From Sialis fuliginosa (taxonomy: Eukaryota > Arthropoda > Insecta > Megaloptera > Sialidae), in NCBI GenBank assembly GCA_961205875.1, contig OY540813.1, forward strand, positions 12,247,001 to 12,311,000: a DNA stretch of 64,000 nt, read 5' to 3'. The translations under genes were made by a program, and so were the position numbers. Positions 37,801 to 49,200 of the stretch are shown piece after piece (the stretch's first letter is position 1; the number at the start of each line of letters is the position of its first letter). Under the pieces are notes generated by a model. The model was not told the DNA's origin. It searched no databases and saw only the letters and a program-made list of their open reading frames with translations.

Positions 37801-40285
37801 CGTGAGTAATTTTTGCTCACGATCACGCACGCTCACGAGAGAAAAATTTTTAGTCACGCCCGCTCACTCACGGTTACAAAAAAAGTATTCACGATCACGC
37901 CCGCTCACGAATTCTATTTTTTTACTCACGCCCGATCACGCACGGCGGGTCACACTCGTGACCCGAATAATATATTATAAATAAAATGTTTAAAATAAAA
38001 ATTCGATTTAACAGATTATCATATATGCATGAGATCAGAAATTAAAGAAATATCAAAATATACATACATATACTCACGCACGACAAAAATGTACTCACGC
38101 CCGGTCACGCCCGATTGTTTTATTTTGACTCACGATCACGCCCGCTCACGATCCAATATTTGAAAATCGCTCACGTCACGTCGGGTCACGGCCGTGACCC
38201 GACGTGACCCGAAAAATTCACGGCCCGCGCCCAGCTCTATTTCGGTGATTTCCGTCAGTCGGTGAAAACGTCAAAACGAAAATATAAGTTCAAAACGTTG
38301 GCAAATGACACAACGCTGTAACGTCGCCGCGTCTACCTTTCGAAAGTTCCAGCTTCATTCATTTACATAGTTTTGATTCTCAACATCAACGTGACAACGT
38401 TTAAGCGCTGTGTTATTTACCAAGGTTTAAACAATTTTTATTTTTATTGATGTCATTAGGTTACTAATTATAACATATTAATTTATTTAAATGTTTTTAA
38501 TACTGATAATAATATCCAGCTCATAGATTTTAAATTATTATTGACTTGACAAAAAAATAGACACGTCAATTAACGTGTATTCGTGTTTGTTTATCTAATT
38601 TTAACGGTTTGCCATTATTAGCATTAATAAAACATTATTTACAGCTACAACAATCAGTATACGATGTCCCTGGGACGACACCGCATTCGATCACGCCCGT
38701 TGTCACGCCTACATCCAACCTTTCTCATTCACCCCACCCACAAGAGGGGCGGGGATTACCACTTGAATTATCAAGTGCATTGGAAACACTTGCAAGACTT
38801 GACAGTGAAGCAAGTGGGGCGGTAGGACGGCTTCTTGCACTCGCTGGTGGCGGGGCTCGATGGCGAGTACGGGCACACCTTGAGCCCCGCCTCCTTGATA
38901 TCCGATTGGCAGCGACACGCCTAGGGGCGGCAACACACGATTTAGCAGAATTTGCGGATGGGACATTGGGAAATGCTGCTCAGGCACCAGATAAAGGTAC
39001 TAAAATAATAGGTGTGGCATGGGGCGGATCCAAATTAGTCATGGGAGTGGCCATTATATTTTTTTTATATCTAAATAGTAGTGTATTTAGTATTCAGTAA
39101 AATTTTCTTAATCAAAAGGGTGGTCATACACCTTTTGGTCCGCCTCTGAGGAGTGACTAGAATATAAGGCCACTTAAAATAGGCGTGGCCAAAAATTGTT
39201 TATTAGGTAAATTGTGTAGATCTAAATCTAGAAAAAAAGTTTCAATTAAATGTTACCGAAATTAAAATGATTTTAAGCTAACAGAAAATTAAGTGTATTT
39301 TATAGTTTTAATATTTTTATTTTTTTATTTTAGGATTAGCTGCCAAACTTCGTCCTCTTGTAAAAGCACTAAAAGATGCTGATTGTTTAATACAAAAAGC
39401 AACAAATATACTAGATTCCCAACAATGGTCTATCGATGTTCTATCAAAACCTGAAGTGGATGAAAAAGAAAGCATCTGTAAGCCACCCGATGCCTTAGAT
39501 CAATTAATAGCTTGTTCAAGATCCCTCACCGAAGATGTAAGGCAAATAGCATCATTTATACAAGGCAATTCTACTTTATTATTTAAACGTACTTCACCAA
39601 ATAATAATAATGAAAACGGTGATTGGTTAGAAGATTACGATTATGTAAGTTTAGAATCTAGAGAGGCTGTTGCAAAAGAGCATGCTGAAATAAGAGAACA
39701 GCTACCAAATAAACTGAAAAAAGGATATGATGCATTATTGAAGAATGCAGAGTTAGCTGCTACAGAAAAAAATGAAACCCAAAATATGGATCCAAATGAT
39801 AAACAGGTACTAAAATTATTGTGTACTATTTTAATCACATTTATTCCATTTTAAATTAAAGTATTTTTTATTCTAACAATAAACTTTTTTTACAGCTGTT
39901 AACATTTTATGCAGCACAATGTATAACCCATTCTAACCACTTAACTCACGCAATAGATGCGTTTCTTCAAACAGTCGAACATAACCAGCCTCCTAAAGTT
40001 TTCTTAGCACACGGAAAATTCGTAGTTTTAAGTGCTCACAGATTAGTCCACATAGGAGACACTGTTCATAGGAACATAACGAAAAACGATATAAAGACAA
40101 ATGCTCTAAATTGCGCTAATGCATTATCAGAGGCTCTAGCTGCCAGTGTTACAAAAACTAAGAGAGCCGCACTACAATTCCCTAGTGTTACAGCTGTGCA
40201 AGAAATGGTTGATTCAGTCGTAGATATTTCACATTTGGCGAAAGATTTGAAAATGTGCTTGGTTGAAGCAGCTCAACAACCTTAA
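7881..40285 (+). CDS. p130CAS: p130CAS/BCAR1-family focal-adhesion docking protein (six visible exons, N-terminus missing)
   Basis: Coding exons: 7881-8024, 10297-10458, 36320-37093, 38645-38996, 39334-39806, 39896-40285. All junctions are GT-AG, phases agree, and the product is 764 residues plus a missing start. Residues 1-65 form an SH3 domain (ALYDN, then GWWLC, then GICPGNRLRL), which in this family binds FAK and C3G-type partners. Residues 103-400 are a disordered substrate domain with about eight YxxP sites, mostly YDVP, the phosphotyrosine docking sites for Crk. Residues 390-520 resemble the serine-rich four-helix bundle. DYDYVSL at 578-584 matches the family's YDYV SH2-binding site. 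Residues 636-764 form the C-terminal FAT-like helical domain. The RPLPSPP Src-SH3 site of vertebrate CAS is not visible. The protein acts as an adaptor in integrin and Src signalling at cell adhesions. The upstream first exon is not identified. Confidence 0.93.
8264..8392 (+). repeat. Fragment of the repeat also at 27676-27775 and 49803-49925
   Basis: The stretch TTGATATTTATTTTAAAATC, followed by GAATGATACG, ACTCGTGGAGCGATATGG, TGTTATTTGTCCTTTAT and TTCCTTG, recurs in the same order near 27676-27770 and in reverse complement near 49803-49925. Only the distal part of the larger repeat is present here. Confidence 0.75.
9285..10010 (+). repeat. Dispersed repeat ending in CTTCGGAACCCTAA
   Basis: The segment is bounded by AAGGGTTCCGAAG at the left and GGGTTTCTTCGGAACCCTAA at the right. 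It contains two internal near-repeats (about 9325-9480 and 9596-9740) sharing GGGTCATATTCTACTAAT-like sequence and a step reading GACACCCCAACATGCC. The right part matches the reverse complement of 61046-61440, including the AAGTGAGATTAATAGGGTTT end. GGTTCCG/CGGAACCC ends are widespread in moth and other insect repeats. No coding capacity was seen. Confidence 0.65.
10814..11060 (+). mobile_element. MITE copy with GGTCGATCCAGACTATCGAG end (right end lost)
   Basis: The left end reads TTAACGGTCGATCCAGAC and the body matches the complete copy at 16677-16904 (for example ATCATTCACACTATAGGTAT and TCTCGCTTCGATACAGCATA). The right terminal inverted repeat of the other copy is missing, and sequence diverges after about 11030. 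It is a truncated non-autonomous DNA element. Confidence 0.75.
11170..11415. repeat. Truncated copy of the TGTCCGG-ended MITE family
   Basis: The motifs GACAAGTTTCGCG, GTGATATTATGAAAATTATT, AATTCCATAACCAATCCA and GTGCTTGCAAGCTTGC occur in the same order as in 50261-50576. Compared with 27052-27350 the whole is reverse-complemented. The left terminal repeat is absent and the right end is decayed. Confidence 0.7.
11591..11610. repeat. (TG)10 microsatellite
   Basis: Ten uninterrupted TG units, followed by imperfect TG-rich sequence to about 11635. Confidence 0.9.
11978..12011. repeat. (TTA)n microsatellite
   Basis: A run of TTA triplets interrupted by one ACT step. Confidence 0.85.
12065..12640 (+). 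repeat. CCAAGTGCGTG-type dispersed repeat, copy 1
   Basis: It starts with AAAATGACCAAGTGCGTGTT and GGGCACGCACATGA. A related start occurs at 21727 (AAAATGGCCAAATGCGTGTT). Two internal stretches (about 12120-12370 and 12425-12620) repeat each other, sharing TTCATTGAAAGTACTAATTA- and CACCCCACT-like sequence. The GGCCAAGTGCGNGT opening is known to me as a recurrent insect dispersed-repeat motif. No ORF. Confidence 0.55.
13185..13400 (-). pseudogene. Relic of the C-terminal end of a non-LTR retrotransposon ORF2
   Basis: On the minus strand a short frame reads VGLKIYEKLPEDIK and then FKTKIKSYLL. This matches the typical C-terminal 'nkLPedIk...fKkkLKsyLL' segment of Jockey/RTE-like reverse-transcriptase polyproteins. 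Just upstream, in another frame, comes YNTRYDFLHKTSSTR, the usual 'hNYNTR' motif, so at least one frameshift separates the two. No reverse-transcriptase core was found, so this is a dead 5'-truncated LINE fragment. Family assignment is inference from these short motifs. Confidence 0.65.
13437..14005. mobile_element. TIR element (569 bp) with TA target duplication
   Basis: The left end AGGTACTGGCACCAGT is mirrored by ACTGGTGCCAGTACCT at the right end, a 16-bp perfect inverted repeat. TA dinucleotides flank both ends (13435-13436 and 14006-14007). The inverted similarity continues imperfectly inward (TATGGCC on one side, GGCCATA on the other). No transposase frame is present. A TA duplication fits a Tc1/mariner-type or similar MITE, but the family is unknown. 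Confidence 0.75.
14490..14690 (+). repeat. ATTATAAATGCGAAAATAACTC-type dispersed repeat
   Basis: The order TAATATTATAAATGCGAAAA, ACTCTGTCGTCTATTTGTTACC, GACCCGATCTTGATGAAATTT, TAGTTTGCATCC, then TTCCACGTAGACGAAGTCGC is that of a widespread insect interspersed repeat (known from moths and aphids), which ends in 'ccacgcgggcgaagtcgcgg'. It is non-coding and slightly decayed. Confidence 0.65.
16677..16904. mobile_element. Complete MITE with 22-bp-class TIR (GGTCGATCCAGACTATCGAG)
   Basis: The left end GGTCGATCCAGACTATCGAG and the right end CTCGATAGTCTGGATCGACC are inverted copies. The left end follows TTAA and the right end is followed by CTTAG; a TTAA also precedes the copy at 10814. This hints at a TTAA-type target, but the right side is not exact. 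Interior sequence matches 10814-11030. No ORF. Confidence 0.85.
17177..17313. mobile_element. Small foldback MITE (137 bp)
   Basis: GCCGTGTTCAGACCGAAAAA with AACAAAACAGCAAC at the left is mirrored by GTTGCTGTTTTGTTTTCTTT and GGTGTGAACACCGC at the right, so almost the whole element folds into a hairpin. The target duplication is unclear. Confidence 0.75.
17640..17800. repeat. Short dispersed repeat with GCAAATAGCGTTAGCTTGGC
   Basis: A CTCGCA(A/G)ATAGCGTTAGCTT(A/G)GCT motif is found here (about 17757), at about 1576 (+) and in reverse complement at about 60150-60180. Each copy is followed by a TCTAGA/GAGCAT-like step. It is a decayed interspersed repeat without visible ends. Confidence 0.5.
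18514..19027. mobile_element. TA-flanked TIR element (514 bp), GAGTAATCCGG ends
   Basis: GAGTAATCCGG at the left and CCGGATTACTC at the right form a perfect 11-bp inverted repeat, flanked by TA on both sides. The interior has GACGTCATTGG and GTGACGTCAT motifs. The ends resemble those of the element at 54041-54219, suggesting a pogo/Tigger-like relationship. No transposase ORF. Confidence 0.75.
20121..20298. mobile_element. hAT-like MITE with CANTGGCG ends
   Basis: The left end CAATGGCGTAG pairs with the right end CTCCGCCACTG. Flanking octamers TTCTGTAC (20113-20120) and TTTTGTAC (20299-20306) agree at 7 of 8 positions, the 8-bp duplication expected for hAT elements. The interior matches the reverse complement of 31569-31703, sharing CCTCCCTGAAATATTCAGTG and TTTTGAGAAAACATC. 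Confidence 0.85.
21720..22240 (+). repeat. CCAAATGCGTG-type dispersed repeat, copy 2, ending in ACGGAACCCTAA
   Basis: The opening AAAATGGCCAAATGCGTGTT resembles 12070. The end contains GACAGACGGACGGACAGAGT followed by TACGGAACCCTAAAAA, a tail familiar from insect dispersed repeats and related to the ends at 10000 and 61050. The middle is AT-rich without ORFs. Confidence 0.55.
22440..22640. other. GC-balanced unique patch inside p130CAS intron 2
   Basis: This part of the intron is more GC-balanced than its surroundings and includes GGCGGAAACTTAATCAAACG and TTTCCCGGCGGGCTG. It shows no inverted ends and no copy elsewhere in the window. It could be a regulatory element or an untranslated exon; neither is shown. 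Confidence 0.3.
23321..23920. mobile_element. Inverted-repeat-bounded segment (about 600 bp)
   Basis: CATATGGGCAAATTCACAGA, continuing ACGTGGCCGC, at the left is mirrored by GCGGCCACGTTCTGTGGATT and TGCCCATATG at the right. Between them are only short open frames without recognised domains. No target duplication was identified, so it may be the inner part of a larger element. Confidence 0.6.
24517..24532. repeat. Three interstitial insect telomere-type (TTAGG) units
   Basis: AGGTTAGGTTAGGTTA corresponds to the common insect telomere repeat. Three units in a chromosome-internal context can arise by chance or repair and imply no telomere. Confidence 0.6.
24838..25025. mobile_element. Foldback MITE with 9-bp target duplication, short copy (188 bp)
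   Basis: The element starts with CAAGGTAGTCTCAATAG and ends ACTACCTTG...ACCTTG. GTCTGGTAG is duplicated exactly on both sides (24829-24837 and 25026-25034). Inner arms share CAATCAGCGTTTGCGCGGGA with the opposite arm. Same family as 42935-43360. Nine-base duplications are typical of Mutator-like (MULE) elements. No ORF. Confidence 0.9.
25549..26268. repeat. Foldback-type repeat, copy 2
   Basis: The left arm (about 25570-25670), containing AACTTTAGTTTTTCTTATGG, is the inverted copy of the right arm at about 25855-25960 (CCCATAAGAAAAACTTATG). The centre, 25672-25852, is the reverse complement of the centre of copy 1. The right flank is collinear with copy 1 and ends with CACGCTTATCTTGGACACC. 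No coding sequence. Confidence 0.75.
26558..26573. repeat. (AAT)n microsatellite
   Basis: Five consecutive AAT-type triplets. Confidence 0.8.
27052..27350. mobile_element. MITE with about 60-bp TIRs, TGTCCGG/CCAGACA ends
   Basis: The left arm (TGTCCGGAATTATAAAAGAG, then TTTGCTAGCTTGCAAGCACT) is mirrored by the right arm (AGTGCTTGCAAGTTAGCAT, then TTTATAATACCAGACA). The interior matches the reverse complement of 50261-50576, including GTGATACTTCAACTAATTGT. No ORF; superfamily not determined. Confidence 0.85.
27351..27775 (+). repeat. Repeat flanking the MITE, shared with the 50-kb block
   Basis: The block immediately after the MITE is collinear with the reverse complement of 49803-50220. Shared motifs are AGATTAGGAAAGACTATG, GTTACCGAAATTTTACGG and AACAATTGATATTTATTTTA, with the end TTTTTCCTTGTGTAAGG. 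The MITE and this flank were therefore copied together or belong to one larger element of about 720 bp. A distal fragment lies at 8264-8392. Confidence 0.8.
28978..29428. mobile_element. piggyBac-like MITE with TTAA duplication (451 bp)
   Basis: TTAA flanks both ends (28974-28977 and 29429-29432). The ends CCCATTAACGCCC and GGGCGTTAATAGG are 13-bp inverted repeats with one mismatch. The piggyBac superfamily uses TTAA targets and has CCC-starting ends. No transposase frame is present. A related end, TTAACCCATTAAAGCCC, is seen at about 16522. Confidence 0.85.
29881..30006. repeat. Long imperfect stem-loop
   Basis: ATCTTGACTTCTGGGTATAA at the left is mirrored by TTATACCTAGAAATCAAGAT at the right, and the pairing extends inward through GATCGTTCTATCGAT and GTCAATAGAACGAAC. 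Sequence to 30340 then runs into an (AAAT)n stretch, so this may be part of a retroposed repeat. Confidence 0.6.
30312..30337. repeat. (AAAT)n simple repeat, possible retroposon tail
   Basis: About six AAAT units, followed by A-rich sequence. It may be the tail of a retroposed element that begins before 29881. Confidence 0.7.
31569..31703. mobile_element. hAT-like MITE with CAGTGGCG ends (135 bp)
   Basis: The left end CAGTGGCGTAGTAAG pairs with the right end CTTCACCACTG. Flanks ATTAGTCG (31561-31568) and ATTAGCCG (31704-31711) agree at 7 of 8 positions, as expected for an hAT insertion. It is in the opposite orientation to its relative at 20121-20298 and has a poly-C tract near 31674-31684. 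Confidence 0.87.
32509..33038. mobile_element. CAGTGGCGCC-ended inverted-repeat element (530 bp)
   Basis: The left end CAGTGGCGCCAGAGCCGGGG pairs with the right end TTCCGGCGCCACTG, and G/C tracts follow both ends. The end sequence is of the hAT type, but the flanking octamers do not match, so the target duplication has decayed or the ends come from two insertions. Confidence 0.6.
34750..35240. other. GC-balanced unique stretch near the 3' end of intron 2
   Basis: This stretch is of higher complexity and GC than the neighbouring intron. It contains GTCCCCGTTTCCGGACACAA and GGCGTGCACGTGTGAATGGC and has no repeat in the window. No in-frame exon with CAS-like sequence was found. It is a candidate enhancer or untranslated exon. 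Confidence 0.3.
35412..35430. repeat. (GAAA)n simple repeat
   Basis: Four to five GAAA units. Confidence 0.7.
37343..37497. mobile_element. Decayed hAT-like remnant in p130CAS intron 3
   Basis: CAGGCCCGTAACTA at the left and TAGTTACGACACT at the right are partial inverted repeats of a common hAT end type. Flanks ACCAATAT and ACCAATAC agree at 7 of 8. The interior carries GTGCCCGAGACCCCCGCCG. Confidence 0.65.
37789..38239. mobile_element. hAT-like MITE built of TCACG-rich repeats (451 bp)
   Basis: TAGAGCTGGGCGCG at the left and CGCGCCCAGCTCTA at the right are perfect 14-bp inverted repeats. The octamer TTTCGGTG is duplicated exactly (37781-37788 and 38240-38247), the hAT signature. The interior consists of degenerate CTCACGATCACGCCCG-like units in both halves, plus GTGACCCG palindromes, making it highly repetitive. 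It sits in intron 3 of p130CAS. Confidence 0.9.
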
Positions 40286-40443
40286 AAATTGGTATACAAT
40301 TTATACTGACTATTTTTTATGTGTATTATTTGTAAATTTATTCCAGTGATTATTTTTAATAATATTAGTGTTTATAAAAGTATTACCTATCGTAATTTAT
40401 TTAAAATTTTGTGCGTGTAATTTCAAACCAATCTACATTAAGA

Positions 40444-40449
40444 AATAAA
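40444..40449 (+). terminator. Putative polyadenylation signal of p130CAS
   Basis: First AATAAA after the stop codon at 40283-40285. Use of the site is inferred. Confidence 0.5.
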
Positions 40450-42934
40450 AATTAGAGTTATGTTCCATATTACTGTATAAATATAGTAAAGTGAATTAGT
40501 TTTTGAATTGTTAAAACAAATTTGGTACTAGTTATTTGAAACTGACTAAGAAGAAATCAGAAACTTTTTATAATTAATTATTTATAAATACAATATATGA
40601 ATTAACAAGATTTATTTAGCTGTGATGATTAATTATTACCATATATTAAATATTATTATATTTCACACTGTACTTTCAGCACAGAAGTGCTCTACAGTAA
40701 CGATACCTATTTATATGGTGTTTGAAAACTCAGGTTAGATATAATAATTATTTAATATATGTTATTATCATTTTATTAAATAACTGTTTATAATCAAATT
40801 TAAATGTTATATCAGTAGTTTTGTAGATTGTTAGTTAAACTTTTCAAATTCTGGTTTAACGGTTGTGTTATTTATTTAGTACAATACAAAAAAATTGAGT
40901 TCATACATAAAAAATAAATTTGAAATAATAAATATAAAATAATGAATTAATAAGGTAACTATTATATTTATAATATATCAAAAGAGGTATACCAGAGACT
41001 GAATTTAAATTCAATCTATGTATATTATTGTTACTGCCCCCTTTAAAATAGATTTTAAATTTTGAGTATTAAAAATTAAATTCTAGTCATAAAAATAATT
41101 ATTTTTCACATTATGTTATGGTATTTTGTATTGTATTTAAATATTTTATAGAATCGTTAACCAGAAAACATATTAAATATCAGTGTTAATGTTTTTCATA
41201 ATTTTATACGCAGCTTTTTATATAAAAATAAACCAGTGGTTGTGAATAAGTTTTTACTTAACGATTCTGTTTTTTAAGAAGAGAGAAAGGCTGAATATAT
41301 TTCTAAACAGCTTATATTTTAATGCACGATTTATGTTTTTATGTATATATTTATTTCAAATGAGTTCCTTTTTACTACTTATGAATTATATATATAATTA
41401 TATCTATCTATAAATTGTTGATATAATTGAAGCTTATGCTCAAAACTTAGCTGATATATGGTAGAAAAAAAGTGAAACTTTCAAATATAATACAATGTAA
41501 TTGTTATGATTATTGCTATGCAAAGCTTTTCAAAAATTGTTTTGCGCACCCCTAATTCTGTTAATAGCTTATAGAAGCAATGATTTTTACACGGTGATCA
41601 ATGTATGCTCAACTTTTTTAGGGAATTATTTAATTTTCTAAATTTAAACGTTACAATGAAAGATTCTTATAAATTTAAAATCAAATTATTTGTCTTATTA
41701 TTAGCTTGTATAATAATGTATTTTGTAAGTTTCACTTATCGATGTGTTGTACAAGTATTAACATTGTGTAGTTTTTACCAGTGATTCAGGTAATAGTTCT
41801 TATTGTATTATATTTGCAAATAATGGATTAGGTATGGAGACATGGAGAAAAAATTATAGGTATTTCACAATTATTTATTTGTATATAATTTATGTAACAA
41901 TATATTAATTATATACTGACAATATCATAAACTTTTTTAATATTACATATATATTTACACTATTGACTATATTATATTATAGTGTTTAAAAAATATGTTT
42001 TGTGCAATTTTATAATTAGTATAATATTTTCTCCATGTAAATAAAAACTTCAAATCTGATTTCTACTATTTAAACATAGATGTGAATATTTATATCCATT
42101 AAGATCAATGTATAATTTTATTTAATAACTTTTAAAATCAATTTATAATGAAAATATAAAACAATTATCCTACGTTTCATTTCTTAATAACATTTCCATA
42201 AATCCTTTCAAATATCTTAAGTACTATATTAACATAGATCAGGTATGGTCACATTTTTAGACTCGAAAGACAACTTGCGTTATATTCACAAGTTCAAAAC
42301 TAGGACTGGAGTCAGAGCTTAAATAACGGTCTAAAAGATGATATGGATTCTGTCAATTTTGACTTACTGATCAAGTTTTCATAGGCATAAAGTTCAGGAA
42401 TTAATATTTTTTACTCCTTAGTATTTGAACCTCCTTTGACGTAACAAAAGATTTTTTAGTTTAAATATTTTTAAATTCATTTGAAAAATTATACCTTACT
42501 ATGTACAAAATGCAGTGAAACACCATAGGCAGAGAGGACACCAAAAAAAATTTATTTATTTCAAAGATCTGAATAATGAGTAATGTAATTATTTGATTAA
42601 AATTTAGTTGTAATGCATTTATATAGAAATTAAGATAATTAAAATTTTAAATAAAATTATTTAATTTTTATTATATCAATAACAATACCCAGTTTTGCAT
42701 TAATTCCTGGATTCTGTCACTTTATTTTAGTTGAGATAGTGATATTTTATTTTATTTATATCTTAATATCTATATTACAGTTCATATTCACAGGACTCAT
42801 GTAAGTAACAAAAATTTTTGTATGTTAAATTTGATAGCAGAAGCAGCTATTGAATGTGTTAAAACTACTACAAATAAAAACTTGATAATAATTAAATGAT
42901 ACTTTATTCATATAAATAAAACTTCATACATAAC

Positions 42935-43360
42935 CAAGGTATATAAAGACAAGGTAGTCTCAATAGCTCCTTGATCAATCAGCGTTTGCGCGGGAATTAC
43001 GTGACCACAGTGATATATTAAAATGTAAAAATAGATTTTTCGAACACAATAATTTCTTTATCAACAAAAATTAAGAAACTGATGAGTATAATCGACCAAG
43101 CGGTGCAATGGTAGTTTTGCAGAAGGTGAAAGGGGCGAAACACTCTTTTTACGTGAATAACTTCAAAATGGCAACTGCACTCATCGGTTTCTTAAAGTAT
43201 AGGTTTTTGTTGATAAAGGAATTATTTTTTTTTTTTATCTATTTTTACTGTACTAATTGTACATTTATACCATTGAATATATCTCCTGGGTGACGTAATT
43301 CCTGCGCAAACACTGATCAGTCAAGGAGCTATTGAAACTACCTTGTTTTTGTATACCTTG
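42935..43360. mobile_element. Foldback MITE with 9-bp target duplication, long copy (426 bp)
   Basis: The ends read CAAGGTATATAAAGACAAGG at the left and CCTTGTTTTTGTATACCTTG at the right. ATACATAAC is duplicated exactly on both sides (42926-42934 and 43361-43369). The arms extend inward through CTCCTTGATCAATCAGCGTT and TGCGCGGGAATTACGT. Inner arms containing TTTATCAACAAAAATTAAGA and its inverse make it almost fully self-complementary. It ends 14 bases before the NAA10 stop codon region, on the 3' side of that gene. The 9-bp duplication suggests a Mutator-like origin. Confidence 0.92.
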
Positions 43361-43378
43361 ATACATAACATAGCTTTT

Positions 43379-43390
43379 CACATTTATTTT
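43379..43390 (-). terminator. AATAAA overlapping the NAA10 stop codon
   Basis: On the minus strand the gene ends GAAAAATAAATG, so the TAA stop lies within an AATAAA hexamer. If used, this gives a 3' UTR of only about 10-30 bases, which would end in the duplicated target site or the adjoining MITE. Confidence 0.45.
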
Positions 43391-43890
43391 TCTTCAATTG
43401 CAGGAATTCCTGAATTTTCATTATCTGTCATTAAGTCTTTTAATTTTCTTTTCATTGAATATGCATCTTCTCCATCAGCATAATATTTTGGTTCAACTTC
43501 AAGGATTTTAAATTTTAATGAATTTGTATAAAGATTCAAAGCAGCCCTATTACTTTTTCTTACATGCAATGAAACATAATGTGCTTGAAAACATTCAACC
43601 ATTGCTCTAGCTGCTTGGTCCATTAACTTCTGTGCCAAACCAAGTCTCCGGTGTGATCTCTTAACCGCAAGTGATGTTATATGACCATGTTTTTCTTCAC
43701 CATCTTCCTCCATTTTTGCAAGCACATAACCTACAATATTTCCTTTTTCGTCTTCAGCAACGTAACTTAACTGAGGCCATGATAAACCATGATAAAAATA
43801 ATATTTCATTTGATAGTTTTCTGGCAAGCAAAGCAAATTACAATGTTGCATATTCATAAGATCTTCAGGTTTTGCACAGCGGATGTTCAT
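43384..43890 (-). CDS. Naa10: N-alpha-acetyltransferase 10, catalytic subunit of NatA
   Basis: A 168-residue GNAT-fold protein in one exon. It starts [20 protein letters not shown] and contains [20 protein letters not shown], the typical NAA10 substrate-binding segment with the conserved Glu24 and Tyr26. [17 protein letters not shown] (residues 70-86) holds the acetyl-CoA binding R/QxxGxA motif. [14 protein letters not shown] follows. With NAA15 it forms the ribosome-bound NatA complex, which acetylates the N-termini of Ser-, Ala-, Thr- and Gly-starting proteins. The C-terminal tail is shorter than the human one (about 235 residues), as in other insects. The start is 43 bases after the SMIM13 stop on the same strand. 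A MITE ends just past the stop. The family match is strong. Confidence 0.97.
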
Positions 43891-43933
43891 TTTAATTTTT
43901 GTTTATAAAATATTAATACGTATAAATATATAT

Positions 43934-44137
43934 CTATTCACGCCGAACTTTCTTAACACGACTTTTTTCGTTTTTTAAATTAGTTTGAGAAGACGTTTCT
44001 GACATACCACCCAAAAGTTCTCTCACAAATTTAAATTTTGAAAGAAACAATTTCCAAACAACATACCATCCTGAAAATGTAAAAACAATTAAAATAATAA
44101 AACATGTATGAAAATTTACTGAATCATATTGTGCCAT
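43934..44137 (-). CDS. SMIM13: Small integral membrane protein 13 homologue (67 aa)
   Basis: A short single-exon frame with one hydrophobic segment (about residues 11-30) followed by GWYVVWKLFLSKFKFVRELL. This is almost identical to the conserved core GWYFVWHLFLSKFKFLREL of vertebrate SMIM13 as I recall it. A short polar, basic C-terminal tail (KNEKSRVKKVRRE) follows. It is probably a single-pass membrane microprotein with a cytosolic tail; the molecular function of the family is not established. The gene sits between TSSC4 and NAA10 on the same strand. Only 43 bases, with no obvious polyadenylation signal, separate its stop from the NAA10 start. Genes this short are easily missed by annotation pipelines. 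Confidence 0.88.
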   Translation of the reverse strand: MAQYDSVNFHTCFIILIVFTFSGWYVVWKLFLSKFKFVRELLGGMSETSSQTNLKNEKSRVKKVRRE

Positions 44138-44961
44138 TTAGGTTAAATGTTTATGAGTAATTACATACCCAAACATACACACACAAAAACGATGAACAAT
44201 GCAGATAATAATGAAAATATTGATAAAAAGAAGTCCTTCATTATAAAAACATCTGTTTAAAAATAAACACACATCTTATTTCTTTAAAAATGACAAAAAA
44301 CACAGGGACTTGACAAATTCTATCAGCATCACGCCATTTTTATTGCAAAATTCTTAATTTAAACGTTTAAAGTTCAAATTCCATAATATATATTTAAATG
44401 ATAAATAAATTGTTAAAAAACAACATATCTACTTACAATTATTATGTTCGTTGTTGCACTCCTATTTCTAAATATAAAACAATTATAAATCTAGAAAATA
44501 TTACAAAATAGGGAATCAGGAAATAGATCCTTTCTGACAACCACTCGATCGGTAAGAAAAGCGGGAATTTTAAGATATAAAAAATGTAATTATGAATTAT
44601 TTTTAAGAAATTTTGAAATATTTGTATATAAATATATATGTATACCTAATATTGAAATGCATATTAATTATTACCTATTTATTATTTTAATGTTTAATAC
44701 ATTTGCTTCATATTATATTTACAGATTATACTATATACTATTTGTGTAATATTATAATGTTAATAATTTTATTGTTCAATTTCATTAGACAACAATAAAT
44801 TTTAAAATTAATTTATTTGTCTTTTTTTGTCAAACATTAAAAATATTTACATTAGAATATTTATAAATTGATATATTATTAATGACAAGTATATTATGTA
44901 CATTCAATTTATTTATATACTTTAAAATTAAAATTAAATTACTTTATATAATTTAATTATA
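44138..44961. other. Intergenic between TSSC4 and SMIM13
   Basis: AT-rich, with no recognisable exon. A minus-strand AATAAA near 44907-44913 lies about 50 bases past the TSSC4 stop and is a likely polyadenylation signal. The SMIM13 promoter should be in this interval if the gene has its own. Confidence 0.5.
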
Positions 44962-45660
44962 TTATTCATCTCCATCATCTTGTAACAAATGATCTAATTT
45001 TAATTCTTTGCCTTTATTAACTTTCAAAGAAATTTTCTTCTTTTCTTTTTTTACTTTCTGCCCGACTATATATTCAGGCATAACTAATTTACTACTACGA
45101 AAACTTGGTTTGTCTTTTTCATCATTATCAGTTGTTGATACCATTGCTGAAACTTGAAAATCAACTGTACTTTCTTCATTTTTATTTTTACGTGTTTTAA
45201 AAACTATCTTTTCTGGTATTGACTCATCATTCTGCAATACTTTTTCTTTGCGTTCCTCCATTTCACGCAAAAATGATAAAGCGGCAGCAGTGTTACCTTT
45301 ACTTGACATATCTTCAGGACTTACATCTTCTAAACTATATTTAATCCATCTTTGTGGATTGCGTTTAAAGTCAGGTACTGATCTACGATTCAAACATTTT
45401 GAAATCGGTGCTTCTGGTCGTTTAAATATACTTTCTTTACCTCTGAATTGTTTAGTTTCATTTGGGTTTCGTTTTATTACTGTATTAATTATCAAATCTG
45501 TTTCATGAGGTGTCTGTGAATGATATAATTTGTTCACTGTATTAAGTTCTGCTACCTTCAATTTATCAAATAAAATTTTTTGACGATCGGAAAATGTTTG
45601 ATTATTTGTTGGACTATTTTGTTCTCTGTTATCAGAGAAGAATATATCCGCTGTGTCCAT
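44962..45660 (-). CDS. TSSC4: TSSC4-like U5 snRNP-associated protein
   Basis: A 232-residue, mostly disordered, hydrophilic protein in one exon. The start chosen is MDTADIFFSD; a longer frame begins at 45702, but those 14 extra residues are not family-like. The conserved TSSC4 core is visible: SIFKRPEAP (residues 77-85), then VPDFKRNPQRWIKYSLEDV (residues 95-113), then AALSFLREMEERK. Lys/Glu-rich segments and an acidic end (LLQDDGDE) complete it. In humans TSSC4 binds PRPF8 and SNRNP200 and helps assemble the U5 and tri-snRNP in the nucleus; the same role is inferred here. It is transcribed divergently from REXO5, about 590 bases away, so a shared promoter is likely. Insect members of the family are often annotated only as uncharacterised. 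Confidence 0.88.
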   Translation of the reverse strand: MDTADIFFSDNREQNSPTNNQTFSDRQKILFDKLKVAELNTVNKLYHSQTPHETDLIINTVIKRNPNETKQFRGKESIFKRPEAPISKCLNRRSVPDFKRNPQRWIKYSLEDVSPEDMSSKGNTAAALSFLREMEERKEKVLQNDESIPEKIVFKTRKNKNEESTVDFQVSAMVSTTDNDEKDKPSFRSSKLVMPEYIVGQKVKKEKKKISLKVNKGKELKLDHLLQDDGDE

Positions 45661-46248
45661 TGTAATTAAATAAATATTATAAAAACAATGTGATGAATAC
45701 ACAGTTTGTTAAATATTCTTTCATAAAACTACACAAAATGTCAAACTTCATCAATATAAATCTACAGGCTCTGGCACAACACTTGTAGTTAATATCATAG
45801 TAATCGAAAATGTTAACGTTAATGTAAAATTTCGCACATGTTATCTGTGATCTGTGGCACATGTAAATAAAAAGATTAATGTTATTATTTTAGTGCCTGT
45901 ACTTGTCTGTACTTTCAAAGAAAATATTTCTGTAATAAATATATATTTAATAAAAATATTTGCGTCTAAATTACTGTAATGATAACGTCAATGAATACTT
46001 CTTTCGTAAGTAACAAAAGAGTACATAACAACATTTTTATGTATAACCTTAAAAACATTTTAATATAAATTCTATTTTTGCTTTTAAGTAATGTCACAAA
46101 AAATTTTATCTAATATACTGTTATCAGAATCCATTTGCAAGATATTTACTTTTTGAATTTTAAAATTAAATGTCATAATTTTGGCAGAAATTAATTTTTC
46201 TCATTCAATCAAATGTGTGTTATAGGAAATACATCAAAAGAATACAAA
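45661..46248. promoter_or_regulatory. Divergent promoter region between TSSC4 and REXO5
   Basis: 588 bases separate the two start codons, which point in opposite directions. The sequence is AT-rich, and no clear TATA or initiator is visible on either side. Bidirectional use is inferred from the arrangement alone. Confidence 0.45.
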
Positions 46249-49200
46249 ATGTCGAATATATCTACAAAGAAATTAACGAGAATTGAAAACAAGAAGAAGA
46301 AAATGGCAGCATATTTAGAGATATTAAAATTAAAAGATAAAGAGAAATTAAAAATAATTAAAGAAGACGACAGTTCGGATGGTTCAAACCAAAGCGAACC
46401 AAAACCTAAACGTTTAAAAATAAACGGAGAAAGTAATAACAATTTAAACAGTGTCGAGTGCGAAGTTATAAACGAAATGAGTAAAAAGTCTGCAAAAAAC
46501 GAGTATGCCCAATTGAAAGAGGAAGTACGTAAGAGAGCTCCTAGAAAACAACGCCCAAAGTTGCGGTTAAAAGCTGTAGGAGATAAAGCTTCGTTATCAG
46601 TTGATATCGATAACAGGATTCCAATATTTTTAGCAGACATTCAAAATTTATTAATGTATTCACAATTAGGTCACCATTCTCCGTATTTCCCATGCCGTTG
46701 GTGTTTATTAGAAAAATTTAACCGCGTATCTCATACTGTGCTGATAATTGTTGAAAACGTGTCCCTGTATCATTATTTAAGTTATGAAAGTTTCTTTCCA
46801 TTTCTGAATGTAACTTTTGAAAATAAAGTTGAAGTTATAACACCTCGCATGTTTGGTGGAGATATGATTCAGCAGTTAGCTGCTGTTCCTTTAACTGGTA
46901 CTCAAAAGGATAAATTAATCAAAAAACATGGTAGTTTAGAAGCTGCTGTTCAAGCCACAGGAGAAGTATTCAGAACTTTGAGAGATGTTTTTCCAATTAA
47001 TGAGGTTCAGAAAAAAGAAACTCTAATCGATGGCTCAGTAAAATTACCCATTACTGATAAATTCTCAAGGACTCAGATATTATTGTCTTCTTGGCAAATG
47101 GTTGAAGAAAACTACCCACTACCTTTAAAAGGGGAGTTGTCAAAAAGATACTCAAATTATGTTTTAACTAAAGACAGTTATAATGAAGTAACTCCTTTTT
47201 CACCCATGTTCGGATTAGATTGTGAAATGTGCAGGACAACATCGGGAGAACTGGAATTAACCAGAATATCTGTTGTAAATGAAAAGTTAGAAATAATCTA
47301 CGAAAAATTTGTAAAACCCGATAATAAAATTATTGATTACTTGACTCGATTTTCTGGAATTACACCAAAAATGTTGGAAGGTGTAACGACTTCATTAGCT
47401 GATGTTCAAAGAGATTTAAGGGAGCTTCTTCCATCAGATGCTATTTTAGTTGGACAATCGCTGAACTTTGATATGCATACGCTTAGAATGATGCATCCAT
47501 ATATTATTGATACTAGCGTTATTTTCAATATTTCAGGTAAATATTAATTTTTCATTAAAATAGCAGTTCCTTATTTTTTAATTTACTTTATTATGGAAAA
47601 TAACATCTTTTAAATATTTTTCGATTTTTTTCCATCGCAGTAACTTTCCTCCTTAATTAATTATAATTTTATATCAAAGAAATTAACTTTTATTTCTCAA
47701 TTAATTTTATAGGAGACCGTTCAAGGAAAACCAAACTGCAAACATTGGCACATGATTTTCTGTCTGAAAAAATTCAACAAGGTCGTTCTGGTCATTGTTC
47801 AGCCGAAGACAGTATGGCTTGTATAAAATTAACTCAATTGAAACTGAGGAAGAGCTTATCTTATGGAGATGCAGTTTTAACAGGAAGAAGAGATAGTGAA
47901 ATAAATTATGCCACAAGCTTATTTAACCATGTCACTACTAGGGAAAAATATGCATTGATTATAGGTACGGTAATTTTATAAAAATGTTTGGTAATGGATG
48001 TATGACTATATAGTCAAATCTTTTTATGCGGTAGATATGTTTCATAGAAAACCGCAAAAAGATATAGCTTACGTTACAAAAAAAAAAGATTCCATAATTT
48101 TCTAAAACCACATAAAAAACAAAAAATTGTTTAAGTAATTTCACTGTACTATGTTTATATAAATTTCAATTTTATCTTCTGATACCTAATATTATTTACG
48201 AAAAATTTGAATTGTGATTTTTAAAATTTTTAGCGGATGAAGCTGCTATATCTCGTTATCAGACATATCTTCCACCGACTGTATCTGACAGTGGAAGTGA
48301 GAAACCTCGAGTAACTTGTGAAGTAGTGTGTTCAAATAAAACTTCTGTAAAGCGCATTTGTAATCTAGCGCCACAACACTCGTTGACGCTAGCACACTTG
48401 AAAATAACCGATGAACAACTAGATAATTATAGCAAAGGTCACAATAGCCAAAATACTGAAGGTATGTTAAGTTTTATTAATAAATACATTTATAATAATA
48501 TAATTTTGTTCAAGTAAAAAATATATATTTTTTAATTATCTTTTATTTTAGGTGGTCATTACGAAAGTACAGTAGAGAAAACCTGTACCAATATAAACAA
48601 ATGGATAAATAAAATATGGAACAGCATGGCCAATAATGGACTCTGTGTTATTTTATTTGCTGGACATCAAAAAGGTTCCAGTGGTAAGTTTATTTTTATA
48701 ATTTTATTGTATAAAGCTTTTTTCTAGAATTTTTGAACCCCCCACCTAATGTTATGTAACGCAGTATTCTCTATACATATTACAATATGTTTTTTTAAAA
48801 CTATTTCAGAATGAAGTAAATATTATAATAACTATCAGTTAATCGTCCAACATTGTTTTGTTTTTATTTGATTTTATTTGTAAAATGAATGTTACATAGC
48901 ATTTGAATATGACCCCCCCCCCACGTAACAATAAAGCTGTACCCTGTTCAGCCAAAAGCATTACATGGGTTACGTTCATGACTGACCAAAAACAGTGAAC
49001 AACGAGCTTTGATTGATTGATTCATGGAATTTCTGGTGGATTGTACCAGAAATTTAAAGAATGTCATTTTTTAAGCGTGTAAGGAAGTGAGACAGAAGTA
49101 ACCATAGAGATAGAAACTAGTGTTCTGACAGAAATGCTCAACATGAAGTGAACATAAAAGTTCTTTGATTAGCCTGGTCACTAGTTTCTATCTCTTTCTA

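Follow-up and report, generated by a model that had tools for sequence, protein, structure and literature searches.

A SMIM13–NAA10 gene pair in the alderfly Sialis fuliginosa as a plausible dicistronic unit

Dicistronic genes in insects and the alderfly sloth pair

Among the closest described systems is the sloth1/sloth2 pair (CG32736/CG42308; human SMIM4/C12orf73), which is reported to be bicistronic in Drosophila with experimental support (PMC9681215). A first-pass annotation of the DNA studied here noted that bicistronic mRNAs with a microprotein as first cistron are known in insects. Dicistronic genes are not rare in this group: according to PMC4528330, FlyBase release 6.04 holds 159 dicistronic pairs, 69 of which combine one gene having both mono- and dicistronic forms with a partner that is dicistronic only, while 45 are exclusively dicistronic and, in another 45, each of the two genes has monocistronic forms. 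For small open reading frames conserved between fly and human, PMC11475943 gives 32 of 298 on polycistronic transcripts. Human examples described in PMC4705651 are SNURF–SNRPN and the upstream ORF of SLC35A4, in which a smaller first frame and a second protein share one mRNA.

The alderfly genome itself retains a sloth pair. A genome search found SMIM4/sloth1 (UPF0640) and sloth2 (DUF4516) adjoining on C14:13942862-13942393 (−), with family scores of 123.1 and 69.4 bits, respectively. Upon removal of a 60-nt intron, sloth1 encodes 76 amino acids and is followed, after a spacer of merely 2 nt (TAA CG ATG), by the 58-amino acid sloth2 frame; NCBIfam returned no family for the alderfly sloth1. 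This is the known bicistronic layout and, by analogy with Drosophila, a single mRNA may be inferred for it.

The SMIM13–NAA10 pair, which lies in a 64,000-nucleotide stretch of contig OY540813.1 (the window, to which all positions below refer), resembles sloth1/sloth2 in that a spliced transmembrane microprotein comes first and the second frame follows closely on the same strand in another reading frame. It differs in its spacer (43 nt, as against 2 nt in the alderfly sloth pair) and in its second cistron, a 168-amino acid enzyme, whereas both sloth members are related microproteins; sloth1/sloth2 is hence not a full analogue. SNURF–SNRPN and SLC35A4 involve other genes altogether. They share the order of a smaller and a larger frame with the alderfly pair, as the FlyBase class shares two complete, close frames on one strand, but their expression was established by experiment (PMC4705651) and FlyBase membership by cDNA and RNA-seq (PMC4528330), whereas the alderfly pair is predicted from sequence. 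The S. fuliginosa genome note (PMC11549539) names a poly(A) RNA-seq run for the species, ERR11496096. The open-access literature searched contained no paper naming SMIM13 and NAA10 together and none on DUF4750 or UPF0766, and among the matches listed for SMIM13 no title pointed to an insect study. The case concerns one pair in one genome, with an architecture that has a known precedent.

The SMIM13 and NAA10 gene models

The first-pass annotation had placed a 67-codon SMIM13 gene with its start at 44137. This ATG falls within a predicted 98-nt intron (Table 1), and the model was rejected, as 22 of its 67 codons (codons 1-22) are intronic, its match to Pfam DUF4750 (PF15938, which we take to be the SMIM13 family) is the weaker one, and a single workable donor leads into the downstream exon. 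The overlooked part is a first coding exon, exon A, the final base of which is the first base of a codon finished in exon B, so that the locus extends at least to 44241. The intron acceptor ends in TTTTCAG at 44071 and is preceded by a pyrimidine tract (12 of 15). When the acceptor was held at 44070 and 42 GT donors from about 44110 to 44900 were tried, just one yielded an ATG-open frame into exon B.

Table 1. Features of the SMIM13–NAA10 locus, in order of transcription (positions in the 64,000-nucleotide window).
Feature	Position	Strand	Sequence and remarks	Basis
Putative SMIM13 5' leader intron	44253..44436	−	TAATT/GTAAGT ... TTTTTAAACAG/ATG	chosen by eye from listed splice sites; acceptor with 9/15 pyrimidines
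Putative 3-codon upstream frame	44241..44252	−	TAA stop overlaps the SMIM13 ATG (TAATG)	sequence
SMIM13 coding exon A (predicted)	44169..44241	−	MKDFFLSIFSLLSALFIVFVCVCLG; start codon 44241-44239	spliced DUF4750 match
SMIM13 intron, 98 nt (predicted)	44071..44168	−	GTATGTAATTACTC...TTGTTTTTACATTTTCAG	sequence, donor GTATGT at 44168 and acceptor
SMIM13 coding exon B (predicted)	43934..44070	−	GWYVVWKLFLSKFKFVRELLGG... to TAG stop 43936-43934	Pfam DUF4750
Intercistronic gap, 43 nt	43891..43933	−	40/43 A/T	sequence
NAA10 (NatA catalytic subunit), one uninterrupted 168-aa frame	43384..43890	−	start context ATTAAAATGA	PDB and Pfam matches
AATAAA overlapping the NAA10 stop	43383..43388	−	first canonical poly(A) signal past the SMIM13 start	sequence

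SMIM13 therefore likely consists of two coding exons (44241-44169 and 44070-43934) that encode 69 amino acids from a putative start at 44241. The spliced model scores 65.0 bits against DUF4750 (positions 3-52 of 54), well above the family cut-off of 27 bits, and can be assigned to the family on this basis; the 67-amino acid frame reaches 48.2 bits (positions 16-52), and exon A by itself remains below the cut-off with 11.9 bits. Searched against the whole genome, the spliced protein matched solely exons A and B (four candidates scored, E up to 1). A weak match of the spliced product (43934-44241, −) to TMEM208/SND2 (E 0.031; 14.5 bits, below the cut-off of 22.9) probably reflects the composition of the membrane segment.

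The downstream frame is closest to NAA10. Human NAA10 chains in the PDB are matched with an E value of 3.3e-84 (residues 1-154 to 1-155), ahead of the other N-terminal acetyltransferases NAA20 (2e-21 at best), NAA30 (1.9e-10), and NAA50 (3.7e-8), and Pfam Acetyltransf_1 is found with E 4.4e-20. The best match is thus NAA10 over NAA20/30/50, with a complete N-terminal catalytic domain, as expected of an orthologue. NCBIfam gave seven families for this protein, each under its own cut-off. Taken together, the sequence matches make the protein identities of SMIM13 and NAA10 unmistakable.

Genome-wide, this locus was the one strong NAA10 match (two matches at E ≤ 0.01 among the best four candidates scored). 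A second, intron-bearing NAA10 was considered and, on strong though not absolute grounds, rejected, the other match among these best candidates being weak (36 % identity, E 0.0036, two stops). Since NAA10 is intronless here and has its sole strong genomic match among the candidates scored at this position, the locus should supply NatA. Relatives of the pair were also sought in viral and prokaryote sequence collections; four scans gave 2, 27, 31, and 127 pattern-matching stretches, none of which was confirmed, as expected of animal genes.

The intercistronic gap and possible NAA10 promoters

Both frames, their common strand, and the 43-nt distance between the SMIM13 stop (43934) and the NAA10 start (43890) agree with the first-pass annotation, and the gap is indeed mostly A/T (40 of 43 bases). 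If genes were placed at random in 392 Mb, so short a gap between neighbors on one strand should be rare. The gap was further searched for AATAAA and for a good splice acceptor, neither of which was found. The claim that no acceptor is visible holds, since the YAG nearest upstream of NAA10 belongs to the SMIM13 stop codon and has 5 of 15 pyrimidines before it. Two real frames on the same strand, close together and with no good acceptor between them, constitute the sequence pattern of a dicistronic gene in the FlyBase sense.

The missing acceptor also bears on alternative splicing from the SMIM13 leader donor past SMIM13 straight to NAA10. Donor-like sites are available at 44436 and 44168; however, none of the acceptors in 44069-43890 has a good pyrimidine tract, and the YAGs that would open exons at 43998 and 43933 have 8/15 and 5/15 pyrimidines, respectively, which led us to reject this route as highly improbable.

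The companion claim that the gap lacks AATAAA stands, yet variant poly(A) signals are present on the minus strand, namely TATAAA (43907) and ATTAAA (43896). We moreover attach little weight to the missing AATAAA, an outcome to be expected in 43 A/T-rich bases if, as we estimate, about one such motif occurs per few hundred bases of this kind. The variants could provide a SMIM13 poly(A) site within the start of NAA10. On the other hand, AATAAA does not occur past the SMIM13 start until the NAA10 stop is reached, which suits one RNA ending there.

SMIM13 and NAA10 could accordingly be two independent, overlapping units, in which SMIM13 would be polyadenylated within the first NAA10 codons via TATAAA or ATTAAA and NAA10 would use a promoter in exon B or the intron, with no dicistronic mRNA of consequence. 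We regard this as a serious, if doubtful, alternative. Besides the two variant signals, it draws on a stretch free of AUGs from 44005 to the NAA10 AUG at 43890, in which an internal transcription start would yield a clean NAA10 leader, and on CpG observed/expected values of 1.45 (43900-44199) and 1.26 (43750-44049) that drop to 0.16-0.52 deeper in NAA10, each value being based on one to eight CpGs. Gap and NAA10 together contain 6 CpGs in 550 bases (observed/expected 0.47), and a ratio as low occurs in 3.1 % of 577 stretches of the window. CpG density is ordinary where SMIM13 meets NAA10 and low across NAA10 itself, which, on tiny counts, leans slightly to a promoter near the NAA10 start and against a shared transcript, the reading that we favor. 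Two independent units, however, require overlapping mRNAs and a promoter fitted into either exon B, which is short and coding, or the intron of 98 nt, and no core promoter was identified.

The two options that the first-pass annotation had offered, a single mRNA and a promoter for NAA10 within SMIM13, are well posed, and the sequence cannot separate them.

Routes to NAA10 translation and the shared transcript

In the spliced form with the putative leader intron removed, and counting from the SMIM13 AUG, the NAA10 AUG is located at +253 in a different frame, with earlier AUGs at −11, 0, +65, +74, +79, and +138. A leader beginning downstream of the −11 AUG would leave five, the SMIM13 start included, whereas an unspliced long leader would add up to five more. 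The AUG at −11 opens the putative 3-codon upstream frame, which is possibly regulatory if transcription begins far enough upstream for the mRNA to include it.

A bicistron read by leaky scanning would be expected to have a weak first start and few AUGs. The Drosophila sloth1 start codon is described as non-optimal (PMC9681215), and the alderfly sloth1 has T at −3 and two AUGs before sloth2. SMIM13, in contrast, has A at −3, for which reason its start is not obviously weak, and four AUGs lie between it and NAA10, so that the AUG count is unfavorable to leaky scanning. Reinitiation was predicted, from work on HIV-1 tat mRNA, to fail past a first cistron of 55 codons (PMC4705651), and with 69 spliced codons and 43 nt of spacer its prospects at this locus appear poor. 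The same source also states that mammalian cells reinitiate efficiently and refers to factors for this process in Drosophila cells.

These constraints also count against a strictly dicistronic gene, in which NAA10 would be made from the SMIM13–NAA10 mRNA alone, either by reinitiation after SMIM13 or through internal entry within the A-rich gap. The tight gap would suit this arrangement, as would the sloth1/sloth2 layout retained in the alderfly genome and the 45 of 159 Drosophila dicistronic loci that appear to be exclusively so (PMC4528330). Nevertheless, the ribosome would face at least five AUGs, a first cistron of 69 codons, and 43 nt of spacer, and no Rfam family was found at gathering scores in 40000-47000. 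NAA10 is, in addition, a housekeeping enzyme that is expected to be needed in quantity. We therefore consider strict dicistrony unlikely.

The suggestion of a bicistronic unit nonetheless survives in part: the common strand, the tight gap, and the sloth1/sloth2-like layout speak for it, whereas its first cistron had been mis-modelled and is, as revised, 69 codons long, with at least five AUGs ahead of NAA10. By analogy with the known pairs, a single mRNA carrying SMIM13 and NAA10 is a plausible and the most economical, albeit unproven, reading. Given the five or more AUGs ahead of NAA10, an extra 5' end that serves NAA10 only is probable. In view of the AUG load, the limit to reinitiation, the clean internal leader, and the proportions among Drosophila loci, we therefore favor a shared SMIM13–NAA10 transcript accompanied by an NAA10-only 5' end over both two independent units and strict dicistrony, and give this combination an about even chance of being correct.

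According to the shared-transcript reading, SMIM13 and NAA10 would form one compact transcription unit, with transcription starting upstream of 44241, probably at about 44440-44560. The SMIM13 intron (44168-44071), and perhaps also the leader intron, would be spliced out, and cleavage after the AATAAA at the NAA10 stop would yield a dicistronic mRNA comprising SMIM13, 43 nt, and NAA10. SMIM13 would presumably be translated by ordinary scanning and NAA10, at some level, from the same mRNA by reinitiation or rare leaky scanning. Most likely, NAA10 would also be produced from shorter, NAA10-only transcripts that start inside SMIM13, for example, past the AUG at 44005. A more far-reaching variant is an operon-like insect unit with the sole catalytic NatA subunit as the cistron behind a conserved membrane microprotein, in which translation of SMIM13 would set the supply of NAA10. 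The intronless NAA10 might then possibly descend from an ancient retrocopy whose promoter was lost, which became dependent on SMIM13 and took the place of an intron-bearing original. We deem this variant quite improbable.

If confirmed, the shared transcript would place a housekeeping enzyme among the insect proteins that are encoded by a second cistron and would represent a natural test of how ribosomes gain access to a frame preceded by several AUGs and a microprotein of 69 codons. The SMIM13 locus furthermore calls for caution in the annotation of small ORFs, as an intron that is open in frame can mimic the start of a microprotein gene.

Several features flank the pair. Upstream, a TSSC4 gene (44962-45660, −; single 232-amino acid frame, Pfam TSSC4 E 2.7e-32) ends about 720 bases before the SMIM13 start on the same strand, which results in a compact head-to-tail cluster, and a 444-amino acid open frame with a match to RNase_T exonuclease (46213-47547, +; E 5.2e-10) is divergent from TSSC4. 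Downstream of NAA10, a foldback element (42935-43360) has inverted repeats of 137 nt that are 74 % complementary and is flanked by a 9-bp direct repeat, ATACATAAC, at 42926-42934 and 43361-43369. Many diverged copies occur in the genome (at least 100 match pieces from the best 40 of 1694 candidates), and the element probably represents a DNA transposon of the non-autonomous type; with a target site of 9 bp, it could fit the Mutator-like elements. Its right target duplication starts 14 bases past the stop codon of NAA10, where poly(A) cleavage is to be expected.
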